From Dictyobacter arantiisoli (GTDB lineage: Bacteria > Chloroflexota > Ktedonobacteria > Ktedonobacterales > Ktedonobacteraceae), in the NCBI RefSeq assembly GCF_008326305.1, contig NZ_BIXY01000005.1, forward strand, positions 1-64,000: a stretch of 64,000 nt of DNA, read 5' to 3'. This document shows, piece after piece, positions 18,890 to 30,327 of the stretch. The notes beneath the pieces were generated by a model. That model was not told where the DNA came from, did no database searches, and saw only the letters and a program-made list of their open reading frames with translations. Position 1 is the stretch's first letter; every line of letters starts with the position of its first letter. The translations under genes were made by a program, and so were the position numbers.

Positions 18890-19933
18890 ATGGATGAAAG
18901 AAAAAAATCGCCGTCGATTTTCCTTTCTATTGCTAAGGTTGCTATCGTCGTATATGTTTTATTTACGGGTTATAGTTCGTCCGTGTCTCGCATCGTTCCT
19001 GCCAGACTAACCCCTCCAGTGGTAAAGGTGACTCCTTCACCAATACCATCGCTGCATGTGCCTTATGTTCCTCGTCCTCTTCCTGGTCAACAAAAGTGGT
19101 CTGGTACTTCTTCTCTATTGTTTGGTGCTAATGATGCGTCCTGGGATTGGTCCAGTCAGAATATGGGGAATAATCCTGCTGTGCGTGCAACAGTAAAATC
19201 AGCCGGTGTTACTGTGATTCGGACTCCTCTGACCAGTAAGGATGCCTTACAGCGAGTGGCTGTGATAGAAGAGATCGGGGCTCGCTGTTTGGGCATTCTT
19301 CGTCCGCAAGATGCTTTACAGGTCGTACAAATGCTTGGACAACGTTGCAATCTTTACGAATGGGAGAATGAGCCAGATAATGGTGGCCCAAATGTAACTG
19401 CATATTCCCATACCTGGAATCAGCATATTCCTCAATTGCGTGCTATTAATTCCCATGCGGCTTTTATTGGTCCGGTGGTTGCCTATGGCGATATTTCTTA
19501 TATTCAACGTTTTTTGCAGTTGGTGAAAGCAGCTGGTAATCTACCAGATGCGGTAAGTTATCATCTTTACCCCTGTACTGATCAGTCTATTGAAACCTGT
19601 CCCCAACATTTTGAGGATTATACGCAGGTGGCGCAACAAGTGAAAAAGGCGGTTACGCAAACTGTGGGCTATAGCCTTCCCCTGGCGGTTACTGAATGGA
19701 ATTATAGTTGGAAGCCTGGCCAGACACCACATAATGATGCTTTTATGCAGAATTTTACAACCTCTTCTCTTCAAGCATTGGCAAAGGCAGGGATTGCTCT
19801 GGCTAATCAATTTGATCTTGCCAGTAATGCAGGTTATGGTTCACTCGATATGATCAATCCTTTAACGGGCATGCCATATCCTCAACTCGTTGCTTTTCAG
19901 GCAATGATTGAAGAATATAAGCCACATACTTAA
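18890..19933 (+). CDS. Secreted clan GH-A glycoside hydrolase, family unassigned
   Basis: Protein of 347 residues with an N-terminal membrane or signal segment (SIAKVAIVVYVLFTGY), a short Pro-rich linker and a TIM-barrel domain. The motif YEWENEPDN near residue 160 fits the Asn-Glu acid/base of clan GH-A, and AVTEWNYSW near 265 fits the nucleophile Glu at the end of strand seven. It resembles GH39/GH5-like proteins, but I cannot fix the family or substrate. It precedes the large glycosyltransferase fusion and may trim or process its product. The ribosome site is weak. Confidence 0.7.
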   Translation: MDERKKSPSIFLSIAKVAIVVYVLFTGYSSSVSRIVPARLTPPVVKVTPSPIPSLHVPYVPRPLPGQQKWSGTSSLLFGANDASWDWSSQNMGNNPAVRATVKSAGVTVIRTPLTSKDALQRVAVIEEIGARCLGILRPQDALQVVQMLGQRCNLYEWENEPDNGGPNVTAYSHTWNQHIPQLRAINSHAAFIGPVVAYGDISYIQRFLQLVKAAGNLPDAVSYHLYPCTDQSIETCPQHFEDYTQVAQQVKKAVTQTVGYSLPLAVTEWNYSWKPGQTPHNDAFMQNFTTSSLQALAKAGIALANQFDLASNAGYGSLDMINPLTGMPYPQLVAFQAMIEEYKPHT

Positions 19934-20633: not shown

Positions 20634-23600
20634 ATGATCAAGAAGCCTTTTTCATCTCCTGTAAACCACGCAGATGAAGGCCAAAGTTCCAAAAATTCTC
20701 ATTTGCTTAAACTCAAAACTGCTATTTCGGCTGACCGCATATCAGGTCATACTGCTCATCCAGTTATTCCTGAAGACGATCCTGCTGAACTGGCTACCCT
20801 GACAGGGATAGCAGCTGCGCCGGATTTTGCAGAGGCTGCGACCCTTTCTTTAGATACCGTCAATACGATGCTTCCTACGCAAAAGATAGCAGCTGCGCCG
20901 GATTTTGCGGAGGTTGCGACCCTTTCTTTAGATACCGTCAATACGATGCTTCCTACGCAAAAGACAAAGGTGGTGCGGCGTAAGTCACATGCAGCCTTTG
21001 CGGAGACTGAACAGAAGAACGACTTATACGATTTGACTGTAGTAACTCCGACCAGAAATGAGCGTGATAATGTCAGACCTCTCTTGCAAATTTTGAAAGA
21101 TGCTCTGGCTGGCGTGCGGGTTGAAGTTATTTTTGTTGATGATAGTGATGATGATACCCCGGCTGTTATTCAAAATATTACCCAGATTCTGGGTACACCC
21201 ACCTTCCATATTCGCGTTGAGCATCGTGCAAAAGGACCGGCCCGGGCAGGTGGTTTAGCGACTGCGGTTGATCTTGGACTTAGAAGTGCGCGTGCGCGCT
21301 ATGTGGCGGTGATTGACGCTGACCTGCAACATCCTCCAGCTCAATTGCGCATCTTTTATGATGAGGCAGTCAAACAAGATGTGGACCTGATACTTGCAAG
21401 TCGCTATATCAAAGGCGGCAGTACTGGTGGCCTGGATGGCGTGAGTCGTCTGCTCTTCTCGATTGGGCTGAAAACTACTGCTAAGATTTTATTTCCGGAC
21501 CATTTAGCCGGAGTTTCTGACCCATTGGGCGGTTTTTTTCTACTCAGACGCTCATTACTCAATGACGTAGTTCTACGGCCTATTGGCTATAAAATTCTGT
21601 TAGAGATTCTGGTCCGCTGTCAGTGGAATAGCCTGGTTGAGGTTCCCTATCACTTTCAGCAGCGTGAACATGGACAAAGTAAGGCCGATTTTAAACAGGG
21701 AATTACCGCCTTACAACACATGTGGCGGCTCTTTAAAGAGGTTCCATCCGCTGGACGTGTCTGGAAGTGTGCAGGTCTGGTCATCACAAATGTCCTCTTG
21801 ATGGGACTACTCGTTCTGCTGGCTAATGCGTTGCCAGCGATCTGGCAACCGATCAGCGTACTGACTTTTGCCTTGCTGGCTTTACTCAATTTCACCTGTA
21901 TTAATCGCTTCATTTTCCCCGCGACCCCTGTGAAGGATGCGCCGCTTCCTGACTCCCTTTCTCTATTGATGGAACCTCCTATTCCTCATCCAGTGAAAGA
22001 TACGTCCCTGCGTGGGCGAGCAGTCACGACGCTTTCACTGGTCGCAGTGGTTATCGCGATTGGTTGGATTAGTCTCACTCTGCCAGGTGCCTGGGTTGTT
22101 ATTGGTGCATTGTTTGTGGGCTTTAGTGTCCTCAATCATAAACATGTGACTGTTTCGAAATTAATGCCAATGTTGCTTGGTATGCTGGTAGGTATCGCTA
22201 GCATCGATTATCTGAGCTGGCGCTTTGCTGTGACAAACTGGAGTGGTTGGTGGATTGCTATTCCATTGTTGGCTGCTGAGACCATGGGAGCCATTCATAC
22301 CCTGGGTTTTCAATATACGCTGTGGCCGTGGCCCCATCCACGCTTACGCTTGACTGAAGATCCCACACGCTTCCCTGTCTATATCTTCATTCCCACGGTC
22401 AATGAAGGTGCCTCCATTCTTGAGCCAACAATTAAAGGAGCTCTGGCGGCTCGGGCGCGTTATCTTGCACAATATCCACATGGTCAGGTTACGATTGTCA
22501 TTTGTAATGATGGCTACGTCGCGAAGAATCCAAATTGGGAAGAGATGGAGCATCTGGCACGGCGTATAGGTGTTGTCTGTGTGACGCGAACGGTGGGTGG
22601 TGGTGCGAAAGCTGGAAATATTGAGCATGCGCGCCAGTTCCTCAAGGCGACAGATAATGCGTTATTAGTTATCTTCGATGCTGATCAGATTGCCAGGCCC
22701 GAGTTCTTACTGAAGACGGTCCCCGCCTTTGGTGATCCCAGTATTGGATGGGTCCAGACCGGACAATATTATAGCAATCTTGAGAATCCGGTGGCGCGCT
22801 GGGCTGATGACCAACAATCGATGTTTTATAATCTTCTCTGTCCTGGGAAGGCATCGCTCAATTCTGCGTTTATCTGTGGAACCAATGTGGTACTGCGTGC
22901 GCGTGCATTAGATCAGATTGGTGGTCTGCCACAGGATTCAGTGACAGAGGATTTTTCAGCCTCGATTGCACTACATCCTACCTGGAGAAGCGTGTTCCTG
23001 ACAGATGTCCTTGCAACTGGCATGGGTCCTCTGGATCTTCCTTCTTATCTCAAGCAGCAGCGCCGCTGGGCGATTGGTACTCTTGGTGTGTTGCGTACGA
23101 ACTGGCGCGACATCTTTCTGCCTAGAAAAAATGGTTTGAGTCTCGCGCAGCGTATTCAGTACCTTCTGGCTTGCACCCACTACTTATGTGGAGTACGCGA
23201 TCTTATCTACCTGATTTGTCCAATGCTCTTCGTCTTAACCGCTGTTCCGGCTGTGCGAGGTTCAACTCTGTTCGCTTTCGCCTGGCACTTTCTGCCCTAT
23301 TGGATCGTCAGTCTGGTCTCACTCTGGTATGCGGGACGAGGAATTACAGGTTTACGCGGTATTGTGATTGGCTTCGGCAGTTTTCCGGTACTCCTCGAAA
23401 GCTTGCTCTCAGTTATCTTACAGCGTAAAGTCGGTTTCTCAGTGACCTCTAAGAGCCGCACCAACAAACGCTCATACAATCATCTCCTGATCTATGTCGT
23501 GTTCTTGCTGGCAGGTCTCTTCTGTATTGGCTTGACCGTAGTCTCTAAGAGCCGTCAACAGGCTTCGATGTTGATCAGTGAAATGTGGATTGTCTATTCG

Positions 23601-24710
23601 ATGTGTATGTTGATCAGTTTTCTCTGGTTGGGTATCCGCGATTTGCGTTTCCAGAAACGGGCCGGCCAGGAAATGGAATTGGCTCATCTGAAAGATTATC
23701 CCTCTCGTTTGCATGGTAGGGAAAGTGGCCTGCGCCCGCTGGGAAATGTACTGGCAGCCCTGGCTCTAGCCTGTCTGGTCTTTGGAAGTGGTATTATTCA
23801 TCCTGATGTGTCGCAGGCAACTCCATTTACGATTGCTTCGGTTTCGACGACCACTCCATTGACAGGTGTTTCGTTGCCAGTGCAATTGTTGCAACAGCGC
23901 CCGGCAGTATTAGAACAGACTTTAAATACACACTTTTCGATTGTTGGCCGTACCCAGGATGTACATGATCTGTTTAATCGGGATTGGGCCAATACTCTAG
24001 TGGCGCACAATGAACGCCCCTGGATTACATTAGAATTTGGAACTTTTGGGGCGAATGGCAAACCTCCTGCTGATGCCAGTTTGTCAGCAATTGCCAATGG
24101 ATTACATGATAGTGATTTGCAACGCTGGGCTCAGAGTATTCGCGATTATGGAAAGCCGGTTTACCTGACTGCTCTGCTCCATGTGGATCGTAACTGGGCG
24201 CTTTCCTCTGCGGTAGCTAATGGTGGTATTCCACAGGATGCACCGCGAGCCTGGAATCACATTCAATCCATCTTCCATACTATGCAGGCCAATAATGTGG
24301 CCTGGATCTGGGCGCCTGCTGATCCCGCTCATGATACCGTCTATGCTCCACCAGTGTCTTCAATCAATGCTGTACTGCTCAGTATGATCAGCTATCCCAA
24401 AACTAAATGGGTTGATCCTGCTAAAACTTTACAAGCAGTGACTGCCCATTATAAGCATACACCGATTATTGTTGAGGTCAGCGCGGCTGGCGATGCAGCC
24501 CAAAAAGCTAGTTGGTTAACTAAAGTTGGTAATGCAGTCGACGCGGAACCGAATGTCTATGCTCTGATTTATCACGAAGGATCACCAGCCATCAATCCAA
24601 CAGCGGCGCAAAATAAGCAATGGTCAATCTTGTCAGATCCTTCATCTGAGCAAGCCTGGCAGCATATTGTTTCAAGCCTGCAGATCGCAAAAACTACCGC
24701 TCATCGGTAA
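20634..24710 (+). CDS. GT2-GT2-glycosidase fusion protein
   Basis: Giant membrane protein of 1358 residues. Residues 59-84 and 85-110 are a 26-residue tandem repeat. A DPM1-like GT2 domain spans about 133-370 (VVTPTRNERDN, VDDSDDD, DAD at 228-230), followed by helices at 378-425. After more helices (465-560) comes a cellulose-synthase-like GT2 domain at 580-830 with DAD (682-684), TED (771-773) and QQRRW (808-812), the catalytic set of processive synthases. Helices at 845-1050 lead to an exported C-terminal domain (about 1098-1358) resembling GH26 (PVYLTALLHVD; NVAWIWAPADP; PIIVEVSAAG). Asp1185 stands where the acid/base Glu is expected and Glu1281 fits the nucleophile, so activity is uncertain. 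GAGGG at 20622-20626 is the ribosome site. Confidence 0.85.
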   Translation: MIKKPFSSPVNHADEGQSSKNSHLLKLKTAISADRISGHTAHPVIPEDDPAELATLTGIAAAPDFAEAATLSLDTVNTMLPTQKIAAAPDFAEVATLSLDTVNTMLPTQKTKVVRRKSHAAFAETEQKNDLYDLTVVTPTRNERDNVRPLLQILKDALAGVRVEVIFVDDSDDDTPAVIQNITQILGTPTFHIRVEHRAKGPARAGGLATAVDLGLRSARARYVAVIDADLQHPPAQLRIFYDEAVKQDVDLILASRYIKGGSTGGLDGVSRLLFSIGLKTTAKILFPDHLAGVSDPLGGFFLLRRSLLNDVVLRPIGYKILLEILVRCQWNSLVEVPYHFQQREHGQSKADFKQGITALQHMWRLFKEVPSAGRVWKCAGLVITNVLLMGLLVLLANALPAIWQPISVLTFALLALLNFTCINRFIFPATPVKDAPLPDSLSLLMEPPIPHPVKDTSLRGRAVTTLSLVAVVIAIGWISLTLPGAWVVIGALFVGFSVLNHKHVTVSKLMPMLLGMLVGIASIDYLSWRFAVTNWSGWWIAIPLLAAETMGAIHTLGFQYTLWPWPHPRLRLTEDPTRFPVYIFIPTVNEGASILEPTIKGALAARARYLAQYPHGQVTIVICNDGYVAKNPNWEEMEHLARRIGVVCVTRTVGGGAKAGNIEHARQFLKATDNALLVIFDADQIARPEFLLKTVPAFGDPSIGWVQTGQYYSNLENPVARWADDQQSMFYNLLCPGKASLNSAFICGTNVVLRARALDQIGGLPQDSVTEDFSASIALHPTWRSVFLTDVLATGMGPLDLPSYLKQQRRWAIGTLGVLRTNWRDIFLPRKNGLSLAQRIQYLLACTHYLCGVRDLIYLICPMLFVLTAVPAVRGSTLFAFAWHFLPYWIVSLVSLWYAGRGITGLRGIVIGFGSFPVLLESLLSVILQRKVGFSVTSKSRTNKRSYNHLLIYVVFLLAGLFCIGLTVVSKSRQQASMLISEMWIVYSMCMLISFLWLGIRDLRFQKRAGQEMELAHLKDYPSRLHGRESGLRPLGNVLAALALACLVFGSGIIHPDVSQATPFTIASVSTTTPLTGVSLPVQLLQQRPAVLEQTLNTHFSIVGRTQDVHDLFNRDWANTLVAHNERPWITLEFGTFGANGKPPADASLSAIANGLHDSDLQRWAQSIRDYGKPVYLTALLHVDRNWALSSAVANGGIPQDAPRAWNHIQSIFHTMQANNVAWIWAPADPAHDTVYAPPVSSINAVLLSMISYPKTKWVDPAKTLQAVTAHYKHTPIIVEVSAAGDAAQKASWLTKVGNAVDAEPNVYALIYHEGSPAINPTAAQNKQWSILSDPSSEQAWQHIVSSLQIAKTTAHR
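20808..20963 (+). repeat. 78-base tandem duplication inside the fusion gene
   Basis: Two 78-base units, 20808-20885 and 20886-20963, are almost identical and encode two copies of IAAAPDFAEAATLSLDTVNT plus MLPTQK (Ala to Val in the second). The length keeps the frame. It sits in the cytoplasmic tail before the first glycosyltransferase domain. Confidence 0.9.
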
Positions 24711-24749: not shown

Positions 24750-26306
24750 GTGTTAGAAACGCTTTCAAAGACATCTACAGGTGTATTGCAAACAAAAAAG
24801 GTTACCCGGCAACAACTTTTCTCAAAAGTTGTTGCCTCGCGCTGGTCGTTACCTGCCATCCTTTGTTTGCAGGCACTGATCTCACTTATTACACTGCATA
24901 ATACCGCATTCCAGGACGAGGCCCTCTATCTGTTTGCGGGCAAGCAGATTGTGCATAGCTGGATGACGGGAACAAAAGTCATTGATCCCTATGCGCAATA
25001 CTTCTCTGGCTTTCCCTATTTCTATCCTGTAATTGGTGGAGTGCTGGATCATTTCGGTGGCGTTGAAGCGGCGCGGGCCTTTAGCTTGTTTTGCATGCTG
25101 ATAGTAACCTTCTGTGCGTATCAGGTGGCCCAGAGGCTGTTTAATCGCAACTGTGCTCTCTGGGCTGCTATCCTGTTCGCTTTTCAAGCACCAGTCTTGT
25201 TTATGGGGCGTCTGGCGACCTATGATGCCTTATGTCTGTGTTGTCTGGCAATAGCGGCAGCTCTCAGTATGCACGTCGCTCGTGCGCGTACCCCCTGGGG
25301 AGCTTTGCTGATTGGACCCCTTTTATTCCTGGCAATTGTCGCTAAATACGCTGGTATGTTGTTTGTTCCCTCGGTACTCGGATTACTCTTGTTTTACTCC
25401 CTGATCAGTCAGGGGATGCGGGCCATGCTGCTACGCGTGATCCTGGCATTATTGTCTTTTGCGCTGGTTGCTGCTGTAGGATTACTCTCTTTGAGTAAAG
25501 ATGTCCTGACTGGCATTAGCGCGACAACGACGAATCGTGTCGCCACCATTTATAATTCTCCGAGTATCCTGCTCACGCATATTGTTGAGTTGAGCGGGAT
25601 TGCGCTGGTGGTGGGATTCCTGGGCTTGTTACTCATCGGGCGCAAGCGCCTCTGGCTGGGACTGCTTCTGTTCGCATCGGCTCTCTTAGCACCGGCATAT
25701 CACCTTTATAAGGGAGAACTGATATCGCTGGATAAGCACCTTGCCTTTGGTATGTTCTTTCTGGCGCCCCTGATGGGATACGCCGTAGCTTCACTGGCGA
25801 AATACCAGCGCCGTTTCTTCTCCAATTATCACTGGCTGGTTGGCCTGGCAGTGTTTCTGGTCATCTTTTCTCTGGGCTTGCAGCAGGCTGAGTATATGTA
25901 CAATGAATGGATTACCAGTACCAGTATGACTTATACGATGGAGACGCAGACACGCCCCGGAAGCGGCCATTATCTGTCAGAGGATTATGATGTTTCTCGT
26001 TACTACTTGCAGCATGTAAGTGCTCCCTGGCAATGGAATAGTCTCGATTTCTTCCAATATACCGATCGAACGCATCAGCTATTGACCGGTCGACCTGCAT
26101 ATCAAGCAGCCTTACAAGATGGCTATTTTGATGCGGTTGAATTGAGTTTTGGATATAACGTCTCGTTGGCACAGTATATCAGTGGCGAAATTGCGAAAGA
26201 CCATAACTATGATTTAGTCTCGAAACTTCCTTACCATGACGCGTATGGAAATGGCACCATCTGGATCTGGCGGAAACATACCCCCTCACCTCCTGTTTCT
26301 CACTAG
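24750..26306 (+). CDS. GT39-like membrane glycosyltransferase
   Basis: Polytopic membrane protein of 518 residues starting at GTG, with AAAGGA at 24735-24740 as ribosome site. The first outer loop has FQDEALYLFAGKQIV, matching the acidic motif of PMT/ArnT-type transferases (Asp-Glu pair), and FPYFYPVIGGVL follows. About eleven hydrophobic helices are seen, then a C-terminal soluble part of about 120 residues. It starts 39 bases after the fusion gene and is probably co-transcribed, so it may add sugars from polyprenyl-phosphate donors to the same glycan or to exported proteins. Substrate inferred only from family. Confidence 0.78.
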   Translation: MLETLSKTSTGVLQTKKVTRQQLFSKVVASRWSLPAILCLQALISLITLHNTAFQDEALYLFAGKQIVHSWMTGTKVIDPYAQYFSGFPYFYPVIGGVLDHFGGVEAARAFSLFCMLIVTFCAYQVAQRLFNRNCALWAAILFAFQAPVLFMGRLATYDALCLCCLAIAAALSMHVARARTPWGALLIGPLLFLAIVAKYAGMLFVPSVLGLLLFYSLISQGMRAMLLRVILALLSFALVAAVGLLSLSKDVLTGISATTTNRVATIYNSPSILLTHIVELSGIALVVGFLGLLLIGRKRLWLGLLLFASALLAPAYHLYKGELISLDKHLAFGMFFLAPLMGYAVASLAKYQRRFFSNYHWLVGLAVFLVIFSLGLQQAEYMYNEWITSTSMTYTMETQTRPGSGHYLSEDYDVSRYYLQHVSAPWQWNSLDFFQYTDRTHQLLTGRPAYQAALQDGYFDAVELSFGYNVSLAQYISGEIAKDHNYDLVSKLPYHDAYGNGTIWIWRKHTPSPPVSH

Positions 26307-28845: not shown

Positions 28846-30327
28846 ATGCGCTGGAAGTATAAAACACTGATAGCACCGTTGCTTATTGTGCTACTCGTCT
28901 CTGCATTGACTGGTTTTGTCGCGAGTATTCCAAAAGAGGCTCAGGCAGCAAGTTCAATTGCTGGTTTACACGTTGTTGGAAATACAATTGAGAATGCAAG
29001 TGGACAGGTCTTTCGTCCTCTAGGTGTCGATCGTGGTGGAACCGAGTATGAGTGTGATGCCGCTACTACAACAGCGGTTTTCGACGGTCCGAGCGATCTG
29101 GCTTCGGTACAGGCTCTTCAGAGTTGGGATATCAATACCGTGCGACTCCCTCTCAATGAGGATTGCTGGCTTGGTATCAATGGTTTTCCCGCGGGTTCGT
29201 ATAACGCCGCACAGTATCAGCAGGCGATTGTTTCCTATGTGAACCTGCTCAATGCTAATAATATCGCGGTGATTCTGGACCTCCATTGGGCGGCCCCCGG
29301 TACACAGAAGGCAACCGCGCAAACGCCTATGCCTGATCTTGATCACACCAGTACATTCTGGACCTCGGTCGCAAATACGTTCAAGAATAATTCATCGGTG
29401 CTCTTTGACCTATTCAACGAGCCCTATATGCAAAGCTGGAGTTGTTGGCTCAATGGCAGTACGGCTGCGAATCAGGCACCTTGTGGCGATGTCAGCTTCG
29501 CCGTTGCGGGGATGCAAACAATGGTCAATGCTGTACGTGCAACAGGTGCGACGAATGTCCTGATGGCGGGCGGCCTCGCTTATTCTAATGATCTTTCACA
29601 ATGGCTTCAAAACGAGCCGAACGACCCGTTACATAATCTTGCTGCCTCGTTCCATCTCTACAATTTTAATGCCTGCGCTAACGCGAGCTGCTGGAACTCA
29701 ACCATTGCTCCGGTAGCTACCAAAGTGCCTGTCATTACTGGTGAGATGGGAGAGAATGATTGTAGTAGTAGTTTCATCAATACGGCAATGGCCTGGCTTG
29801 ATCAGCACGGTATTGGATATCTTGGTTGGGGCTGGGATACCTATGATTGCGGAAGTTATCCTTCACTGATCTCTAATTATAACGGGACACCTACTGCATT
29901 CGGTGCGGGACTCAAGGCTCATCTGATTGCTCTGGCAGGAAGTGGTCCTTCTCCAACGCCGACGCCAACCCCAATTAATCCAACGCCAACGCCAACATCA
30001 ACCCCACCTGCTTCTGGAGACGTCCATGTCGGGTATCAGGTAAATCAGTGGCAAGGAGGATTCTCAGCGAGTATCTCAATTACGAACAATGGTACTTCAA
30101 CCATCCATGGATGGACCTTGCAATTTACCTTTCCTGGTGATCAAAAGATCACTCAATTGTGGAGTGGAAGCTATACTCAGACTGGTAAGCAAGTTTCGAT
30201 CACGAATGTGAGTTACAATGGAACCATTGTACCCGGGCAAACCGTGACCCTTGGTTTTAATGGCACCTGGACGAGCAATGATACCAGTCCTACCTCGTTT
30301 ACACTGAATGGAGCACCAACCAGTTAA
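28846..30327 (+). CDS. Secreted GH5 cellulase with CBM2
   Basis: Exported enzyme of 493 residues that should cut beta-1,4-glucan (endoglucanase-type). A signal peptide ends near EAQAAS (residue 36). The GH5 catalytic domain (about 38-365) has the acid/base Glu192 in LFDLFNEPY and the nucleophile Glu300 in VITGEMGEND; ILDLHWAAP and WGWDTYDCG are further family landmarks. A linker rich in Pro-Thr (about 372-392) leads to a CBM2-type cellulose-binding domain (about 393-493) with conserved Trp residues (NQWQGGF, HGWTLQF, QLWSG). GAAGGAGA upstream is a good ribosome site. It stands alone with its own promoter. The specific polymer could also be another beta-glucan. Confidence 0.9.
   Translation: MRWKYKTLIAPLLIVLLVSALTGFVASIPKEAQAASSIAGLHVVGNTIENASGQVFRPLGVDRGGTEYECDAATTTAVFDGPSDLASVQALQSWDINTVRLPLNEDCWLGINGFPAGSYNAAQYQQAIVSYVNLLNANNIAVILDLHWAAPGTQKATAQTPMPDLDHTSTFWTSVANTFKNNSSVLFDLFNEPYMQSWSCWLNGSTAANQAPCGDVSFAVAGMQTMVNAVRATGATNVLMAGGLAYSNDLSQWLQNEPNDPLHNLAASFHLYNFNACANASCWNSTIAPVATKVPVITGEMGENDCSSSFINTAMAWLDQHGIGYLGWGWDTYDCGSYPSLISNYNGTPTAFGAGLKAHLIALAGSGPSPTPTPTPINPTPTPTSTPPASGDVHVGYQVNQWQGGFSASISITNNGTSTIHGWTLQFTFPGDQKITQLWSGSYTQTGKQVSITNVSYNGTIVPGQTVTLGFNGTWTSNDTSPTSFTLNGAPTS

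Follow-up and report, generated by a model that had tools for sequence, protein, structure and literature searches.

A DPM1-like domain, a processive glycosyltransferase and a GH26-fold domain without its acid/base glutamate joined in one Ktedonobacteria protein

Introduction

The closest described relatives of the protein studied here are the BcsA-like 'Orphan'/NdvB proteins of pseudomonads, in which a family 2 glycosyltransferase (GT2) and a periplasmic glycoside hydrolase domain of family 17 (GH17) are proposed to make and cyclise beta-1,3-glucan (PMC10237404). Multi-component transmembrane glycosylation systems are related in another way; they consist of a GT-A glycosyltransferase, a GtrA flippase and a GT-C glycosyltransferase, and one GT-C of this type bears a polysaccharide-binding domain (PMC8035078, PMC11127046). 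We analyzed a protein of Dictyobacter arantiisoli (Chloroflexota; Ktedonobacteria) that resembles both in part. It is encoded at positions 20634-24710 of a 64,000-nucleotide stretch of contig NZ_BIXY01000005.1 (assembly GCF_008326305.1), hereafter the window, and combines a DPM1-like GT2 domain, a processive GT2 and a C-terminal GH26-fold domain that has lost the catalytic acid/base residue. This three-part domain combination is real and conserved. It is apparently undescribed, as the open-licence literature searched contained neither a dead GH26-fold version with a DPM1-like domain nor a DPM-cellulose synthase pairing in Chloroflexi. A query on fusions of GH26 with glycosyltransferases yielded only two papers, both on plant cell walls. 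The best explanation, to which we give somewhat better than even chances, is a polysaccharide synthase with an outer pseudo-glycosidase that holds the chain, combined with lipid-linked sugar decoration through a GT-C enzyme.

Three domains in one conserved frame

The gene is a single, intact, ATG-started open reading frame. Its division into a DPM1-like GT2, a processive GT2 and a glycosidase-like domain, proposed in an initial annotation, was borne out by Pfam and PDB searches. The parts are as follows, with the supporting evidence in brackets.

20634-24710, + strand: three-part fusion protein, 1358 amino acids (Pfam, PDB searches, relatives)
21036-21566, + strand: DPM1-like GT2 domain, residues 135-311 (Pfam, PfDPMS match, motifs)
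21315-21323, + strand: DxD of the DPM1-like domain, residues 228-230 (motif reading)
21768-21887, + strand: predicted two-helix membrane hairpin after the DPM domain, at the place of a DPMS/GtrA-type membrane segment (hydropathy)
22020-22310, + strand: BcsA-like transmembrane helices 1-4, residues 463-559 (hydropathy, BcsA match 460-1015)
22377-23123, + strand: processive GT2 core (Pfam, motifs, TIGR03030)
23199-23624, + strand: BcsA-like transmembrane helices 5-8, including the presumed interface helix 910-928 (hydropathy, motifs)
23436-23453, + strand: FxVTxK, presumed gating-loop motif, residues 935-940 (motif reading)
23742-23798, + strand: extra transmembrane helix, residues 1037-1055, predicted to carry the C-terminal domain outside (hydropathy)
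23850-24707, + strand: GH26-fold pseudo-glycosidase domain, residues 1073-1358 (profile, AlphaFold, Foldseek, hhalign)
24180-24182, + strand: His1183, at the GH26 acid/base Glu position (profile, bridging sequences, hhalign)
24186-24188, + strand: invariant Asp1185 (alignments)
24474-24476, + strand: Glu1281, at the nucleophile position (alignments)

A comparison of 47 genomes from the class gave five more (G024, G027, G033, G034 and G036), the isolate Tengunoibacter included, that encode all three parts as a single frame (1380-1552 codons from stop to stop), and G030 has both pieces on two contig ends. The source genome has no second protein of the three-part type. Because the frame recurs in independent assemblies, it is genuine; the initial annotation had asked for this check and for a search of the architecture in other Ktedonobacteria, and both came out in its favour. 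Misassembly can be ruled out, since the identical architecture occurs in six genomes, one of them an isolate record and some assembled into few contigs. The same distribution makes it very improbable that neighbouring genes were fused by chance without joint function. Nothing was found in favour of that reading; the remaining genes of the window have only a loose functional relation.

The C-terminal barrel has lost the GH26 acid/base residue

The C-terminal 286 residues matched the GH26 lichenase CtLic26A in a phmmer search (1.7e-4), and a profile of five family members matched it at 5.5e-10, with chains containing CtLic26A as the only matches. An AlphaFold model of the domain is an eight-stranded barrel with a predicted local distance difference test score (pLDDT) of 82.7. 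Its seven best Foldseek matches were CtLic26A chains (top match 1.6e-16, template modelling score 0.75), the seventh being transporter entry 6zpl, where the sequence table identifies chain C as the lichenase. Structure prediction and fold search, which the initial annotation had named as a check, thus confirmed a (beta/alpha)8 barrel related to GH26 structures; it matches GH26 and not the GH17 fold of Orphan/NdvB. No Pfam family falls on the domain, GH26 (PF02156) included, which gave no match at E<=10 in six family members, and the domain is therefore a divergent relative.

GH26 enzymes use a Glu/Glu catalytic pair, and their subsite -1 contains Arg, His and Phe (PMC6556568). In the profile alignment, R-P-L-H-E(109)-A-N-G-D-W of CtLic26A corresponds to T-A-L-L-H(1183)-V-D-R-N-W of the window protein, and the identical register was obtained from bridging Chloroflexota and Actinobacteriota GH26 sequences and from hhalign (probability 99.9, 273 columns). 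In the model, His1183 is the last residue of strand 4, and Glu1281 lies within strand 7. The acid/base Glu, expected at the end of strand 4 and usually part of an HE motif, is replaced by His or Gln in all nine distinct family domains (Gln in L042 and L053); among related GH26 domains from Chloroflexota and Actinobacteriota with this site covered, 44 of 44 retain it, two of them (L072 and L080, which the profile shifts) by visual reading. The subsite -1 Arg, the His preceding the acid/base residue and the residue after the Trp are also replaced, and the Trp is kept. The Asp that the initial annotation had put in the acid/base position is Asp1185, two residues further on, which aligns with the Asn of HEMN. 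Its other statement, a retained Glu at the nucleophile position, for which the end of strand 7 is expected, is true of the window protein (Glu1281) and of seven of the nine domains in all, but L037 and L042 have Lys.

Asp1185, Asn1187 and Trp1188 are invariant, and in a comparison of nine sequences, with loops defined on the model, invariant residues occupy 32 of 110 positions on the substrate face (29%) versus 4 of 40 on the opposite face (10%; Fisher p=0.017). This concentration argues for retained ligand binding. The family forms one clade (support 100/100) whose stem is 2.29 changes per column long, and a single clade on a long stem with a conserved substrate face fits a changed but maintained function. 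The simplest reading of that function is that the domain may bind or guide an emerging chain. Canonical GH26 activity was rejected as the leading view since the acid/base residue is lost. The earlier suggestion of cutting, if taken as canonical retaining glycosidase activity, is not supported. The proposal of a binding domain or modified enzyme is strengthened by a catalytic pair broken across the clade and a conserved cleft face.

GH26 domains were found in other fusions as well. A separate processive GT2-GH26 fusion occurs in the Chloroflexota family f55 (L083:2571-5321 and L084:7158-9917, frames of 917-920 amino acids), with both catalytic Glu apparently intact, and genome G126 encodes a PMT_2 (GT-C)-GH26 fusion in an 845-amino-acid frame (L087:3458-5992). 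Together these cases indicate that joining of GH26 to membrane glycosyltransferases is recurrent. The f55 fusions adjoin a stand-alone GH26 gene in divergent or convergent orientation, and the G126 genome has several other large GH26-containing proteins.

The f55 fusions matter for a different view of the barrel, in which catalysis persists at a rebuilt site, with Glu1281 acting as nucleophile together with His1183/Asp1185 or with the barrel working as a transglycosylase, and the fusion makes, cuts and rejoins a glycan as GT2-GH17 cyclic-glucan synthases would. That an independent GT2-GH26 fusion keeps both Glu, that a precedent has been proposed in a BcsA-like synthase whose outer GH17 domain is active (PMC10237404), that most family members retain Glu1281, and that the three invariant residues and the cleft face are conserved all speak for such an enzyme. 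However, the site has lost the acid/base Glu together with its preceding His and the Arg of subsite -1, and Lys stands at the nucleophile position of L037 and L042 in domains that are otherwise retained; we regard a rebuilt enzyme as unlikely. Slightly less likely again is its more far-reaching form, in which the GH26 scaffold bears an enzyme of a new type (with a His/Asp and Glu site) within a one-piece machine that would polymerise, export and remodel a lipid-sugar-decorated polysaccharide of Ktedonobacteria.

The processive synthase and its membrane topology

Pfam assigned Glyco_tranf_2_3 to residues 582-814 and Cellulose_synt to 768-954, and a sequence search of the PDB matched residues 460-1015 to BcsA (1.2e-38). 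The synthase motifs are all kept: CND (D626), DxD (682-684), TED (771-773), QxxRW (808-812) and FxVTxK (935-940), the last of which we take to be the gating-loop motif from knowledge of BcsA. CND, DADQ, TED, QxxRW and FxVTxK are present in all relatives whose sequence covers them. With these motifs and a BcsA-like transmembrane layout the part belongs to the processive GT2 enzymes. It does not qualify as a CelA equivalog. The NCBIfam model TIGR03030 (CelA) matched at 7.8e-68, with 229 bits against a cut-off of 699 and a match that stops at position 559 of 714, before the C-terminal PilZ region, and no PilZ domain was among the Pfam matches of the fusion protein. Because of the low score and the truncated match, the product cannot be called cellulose.

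When hydropathy was compared with the BcsA layout, the DPM domain was followed by a pair of helices and the GT core was flanked by four on each side; a ninth helix spans residues 1037-1055, behind a positively charged loop (998-1036). BcsA topology homology, hydropathy and the positive-inside loops support the earlier claim that the glycosidase-like domain is extracytoplasmic. This inferred placement takes residues 910-928 to be interface helix 3, an assignment made from knowledge of BcsA; the tail would be inside if they formed a true transmembrane helix.

A synthase without the DPM domain occurs in G018, in G152 (from another part of the phylum) and in L038, a metagenome-assembled genome labelled Acidimicrobiia. 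Synthase and C-terminal domain share one frame in G018 and L038 and lie on two contigs (L050 and L053) in G152. The L038 protein is a close relative (55%) with a GT-C neighbour as well, reflecting either horizontal transfer or a mis-binned contig.

The DPM1-like domain and the neighbouring GT-C gene

The N-terminal GT2 domain was recognized as Glycos_transf_2 by Pfam (residues 135-311, 2.4e-33) and matched PfDPMS in the PDB (residues 134-419, 2.5e-38). It is a GT-A domain with DxD and PfDPMS-like sequence, its motifs are intact in the window protein (DADLQHPP etc.), and it probably transfers a sugar to polyprenyl phosphate. The PfDPMS alignment extends through residue 419, and at the place of the two-helix hairpin the stand-alone relative L115 has a Pfam GtrA_DPMS_TM match. 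Members with and without the DPM domain alternate on the C-domain tree, and the domain was therefore lost or gained more than once. The initial annotation's inclusion of the DPM1-like part in a common pathway is plausible, yet the domain is absent in three relatives and has lost its DxD in one. A separate DPM relative lies in a 764-amino-acid frame of G018 (L045:7284-9575), in which the GT2 domain is followed by a weak match to PIG-U; this may be a GT2-GT-C fusion.

Some regions around the domain vary. In L037:6734-11389 the DPM-to-synthase linker is expanded with repeated TQ-containing motifs. Their excess is significant there (9 versus 0.5 expected) and also in the window protein, where it stems from a 78-bp tandem duplication (20807-20962, 97% identical) that doubles a 26-residue unit near the N terminus, in a stretch that is probably disordered. 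Such motifs were rejected as a family trait, as no clear excess was seen in relatives other than L037.

Two neighbouring genes were considered as pathway members.

24750-26306, + strand: GT-C (PMT_2/GT39-like) partner gene with NTAFQDE motif (Pfam, neighbourhood comparison)
18890-19933, + strand: upstream GH5/GH39-like (clan GH-A) protein (Pfam, neighbourhood comparison)

The GT-C gene begins 39 nt after the fusion gene. A PMT_2-type gene directly follows in all relatives whose contig continues, at 12-92 nt where measured, and NTAFQDE is kept in the GT-C rows covering that segment, which supports the link to this gene that had been drawn earlier. This adjacency is seen although PMT_2 matches number only 18 in the 7.2 Mb genome. 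No PDB relatives of gene 24750 were found. The GH-A protein has relatives in L040 (63% identical) and L043 (32%) and was not found in the other loci; as a completing member of the pathway, another earlier suggestion, it is conserved in these two loci only. In L040 (11542-13079; G024, same genus) the GT-C gene after the fusion is in two overlapping frames, which suggests a frameshift or sequencing error. A few genes downstream of the fusion and in the same orientation lies a GH5 domain with CBM2 (28846-30327), and promoter and terminator scans around the fusion gene gave sites no more numerous than in shuffles.

Proteins are common acceptors of GT39/PMT_2 enzymes. One alternative is that the DPM part and its GT-C neighbour act in protein or lipid O-glycosylation and are merely co-expressed with an unrelated capsule synthase, a view to which the dispensability of the DPM part in some relatives also contributes. 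It is hard to reconcile with L038, L043 and L053, in which the GT-C gene adjoins a synthase without the DPM part, indicating that the synthase, and not the DPM part, is the partner of the GT-C. We consider separate O-glycosylation doubtful, though a shade more credible than a rebuilt barrel enzyme. A similar kit is unfused in G002, from a related Ktedonobacteria family. There, separate adjoining genes (L116:1513-7824 and L117:4924-11000) encode a processive-type GT2 (in L117 identified by a weak BLAST match only), a PMT_2 protein, a two-domain GH5 protein and, at 52-54% identity, a DPM relative. Such unfused use of the kit, with GH5, another clan GH-A partner, in place of GH26, supports the pathway reading over chance.

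Proposed role of the fusion

For a synthase with a holding domain and a decorating GT-C partner, the following sequence of events can be envisaged. In the cytoplasm, the BcsA-like part would polymerise the sugar of a nucleotide donor, and it would extrude the putative polymer through its own channel. At the outer face, the GH26-fold domain, attached by one extra helix, would grip or guide the emerging chain in the former substrate cleft, without cutting it. A lipid-linked sugar, presumably with the help of a flippase, would supply the neighbouring GT-C enzyme, which may then decorate the chain. The multi-component glycosylation systems serve as the model for the DPM/GT-C pair (PMC8035078, PMC11127046); GT-A synthase and GT-C are likewise encoded together in the window, with the GT-A part absent in three relatives.

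Several observations weigh against this proposal. Seven of nine family members keep Glu at position 1281, which would be superfluous in a pure binding domain. The DPM domain is not indispensable, being absent from G018, G152 and the L038 record, and in Tengunoibacter tsumagoiensis (L037:6734-11389) its DxD reads DGE and other motif residues are lost too. The cluster contains no flippase, and the two GtrA genes of the genome are elsewhere. The AlphaFold model of residues 461-1358 had a pLDDT of 53.8 and was not used, so the C-terminal domain could not be placed at the channel exit.

Outer-face domains of processive synthases help decide the fate of the extruded glycan, and the dead-glycosidase clade, set against the apparently living GT2-GH26 fusions elsewhere, offers a natural comparison of 'hold' with 'cut'. 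The fusion physically couples lipid-linked sugar supply and polymer synthase, and the protein hints at a so far unstudied route to making and decorating surface polysaccharide. Extracytoplasmic decoration of a cellulose-like polymer would become directly testable in cultured Ktedonobacteria such as Tengunoibacter.

Comparison with known systems

Each part of the protein has a known counterpart from which it departs. PfDPMS and other DPM1-like polyprenyl-phosphate mannose synthases share the DAD-bearing GT-A domain and the membrane helices behind it; the membrane part of PfDPMS has four helices, whereas the window protein has two and then a second synthase. With BcsA/CelA cellulose synthase (TIGR03030) it has in common transmembrane helices 1-4, the GT2 core with D, DxD, TED and QxxRW, helices 5-8 and FxVTxK, but a transmembrane helix and the GH26-fold domain replace the C-terminal PilZ region. 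CtLic26A is similar in fold (template modelling score 0.75) and in profile along the barrel; in the window protein the Arg-x-x-His-Glu motif is replaced, with His or Gln for the acid/base Glu in the family, and Pfam GH26 is not matched.

At the level of systems, multi-component glycosylation shares a polyprenyl-phosphate-sugar synthase-like part coupled to a neighbouring GT-C, but here the GT-A part is fused to a polymer synthase and the cluster is without a flippase (PMC8035078, PMC11127046). The closest described architecture is that of Orphan/NdvB, where one polypeptide joins a processive GT2 of BcsA type to a TIM barrel of glycosidase fold outside the cytoplasm. In those proteins the GH17 domain comes first and is proposed to be active in cyclisation, whereas the domain of the window protein is C-terminal, of GH26 fold and catalytically broken (PMC10237404). 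Orphan/NdvB have no third, DPM1-like domain, and the window protein adds one.

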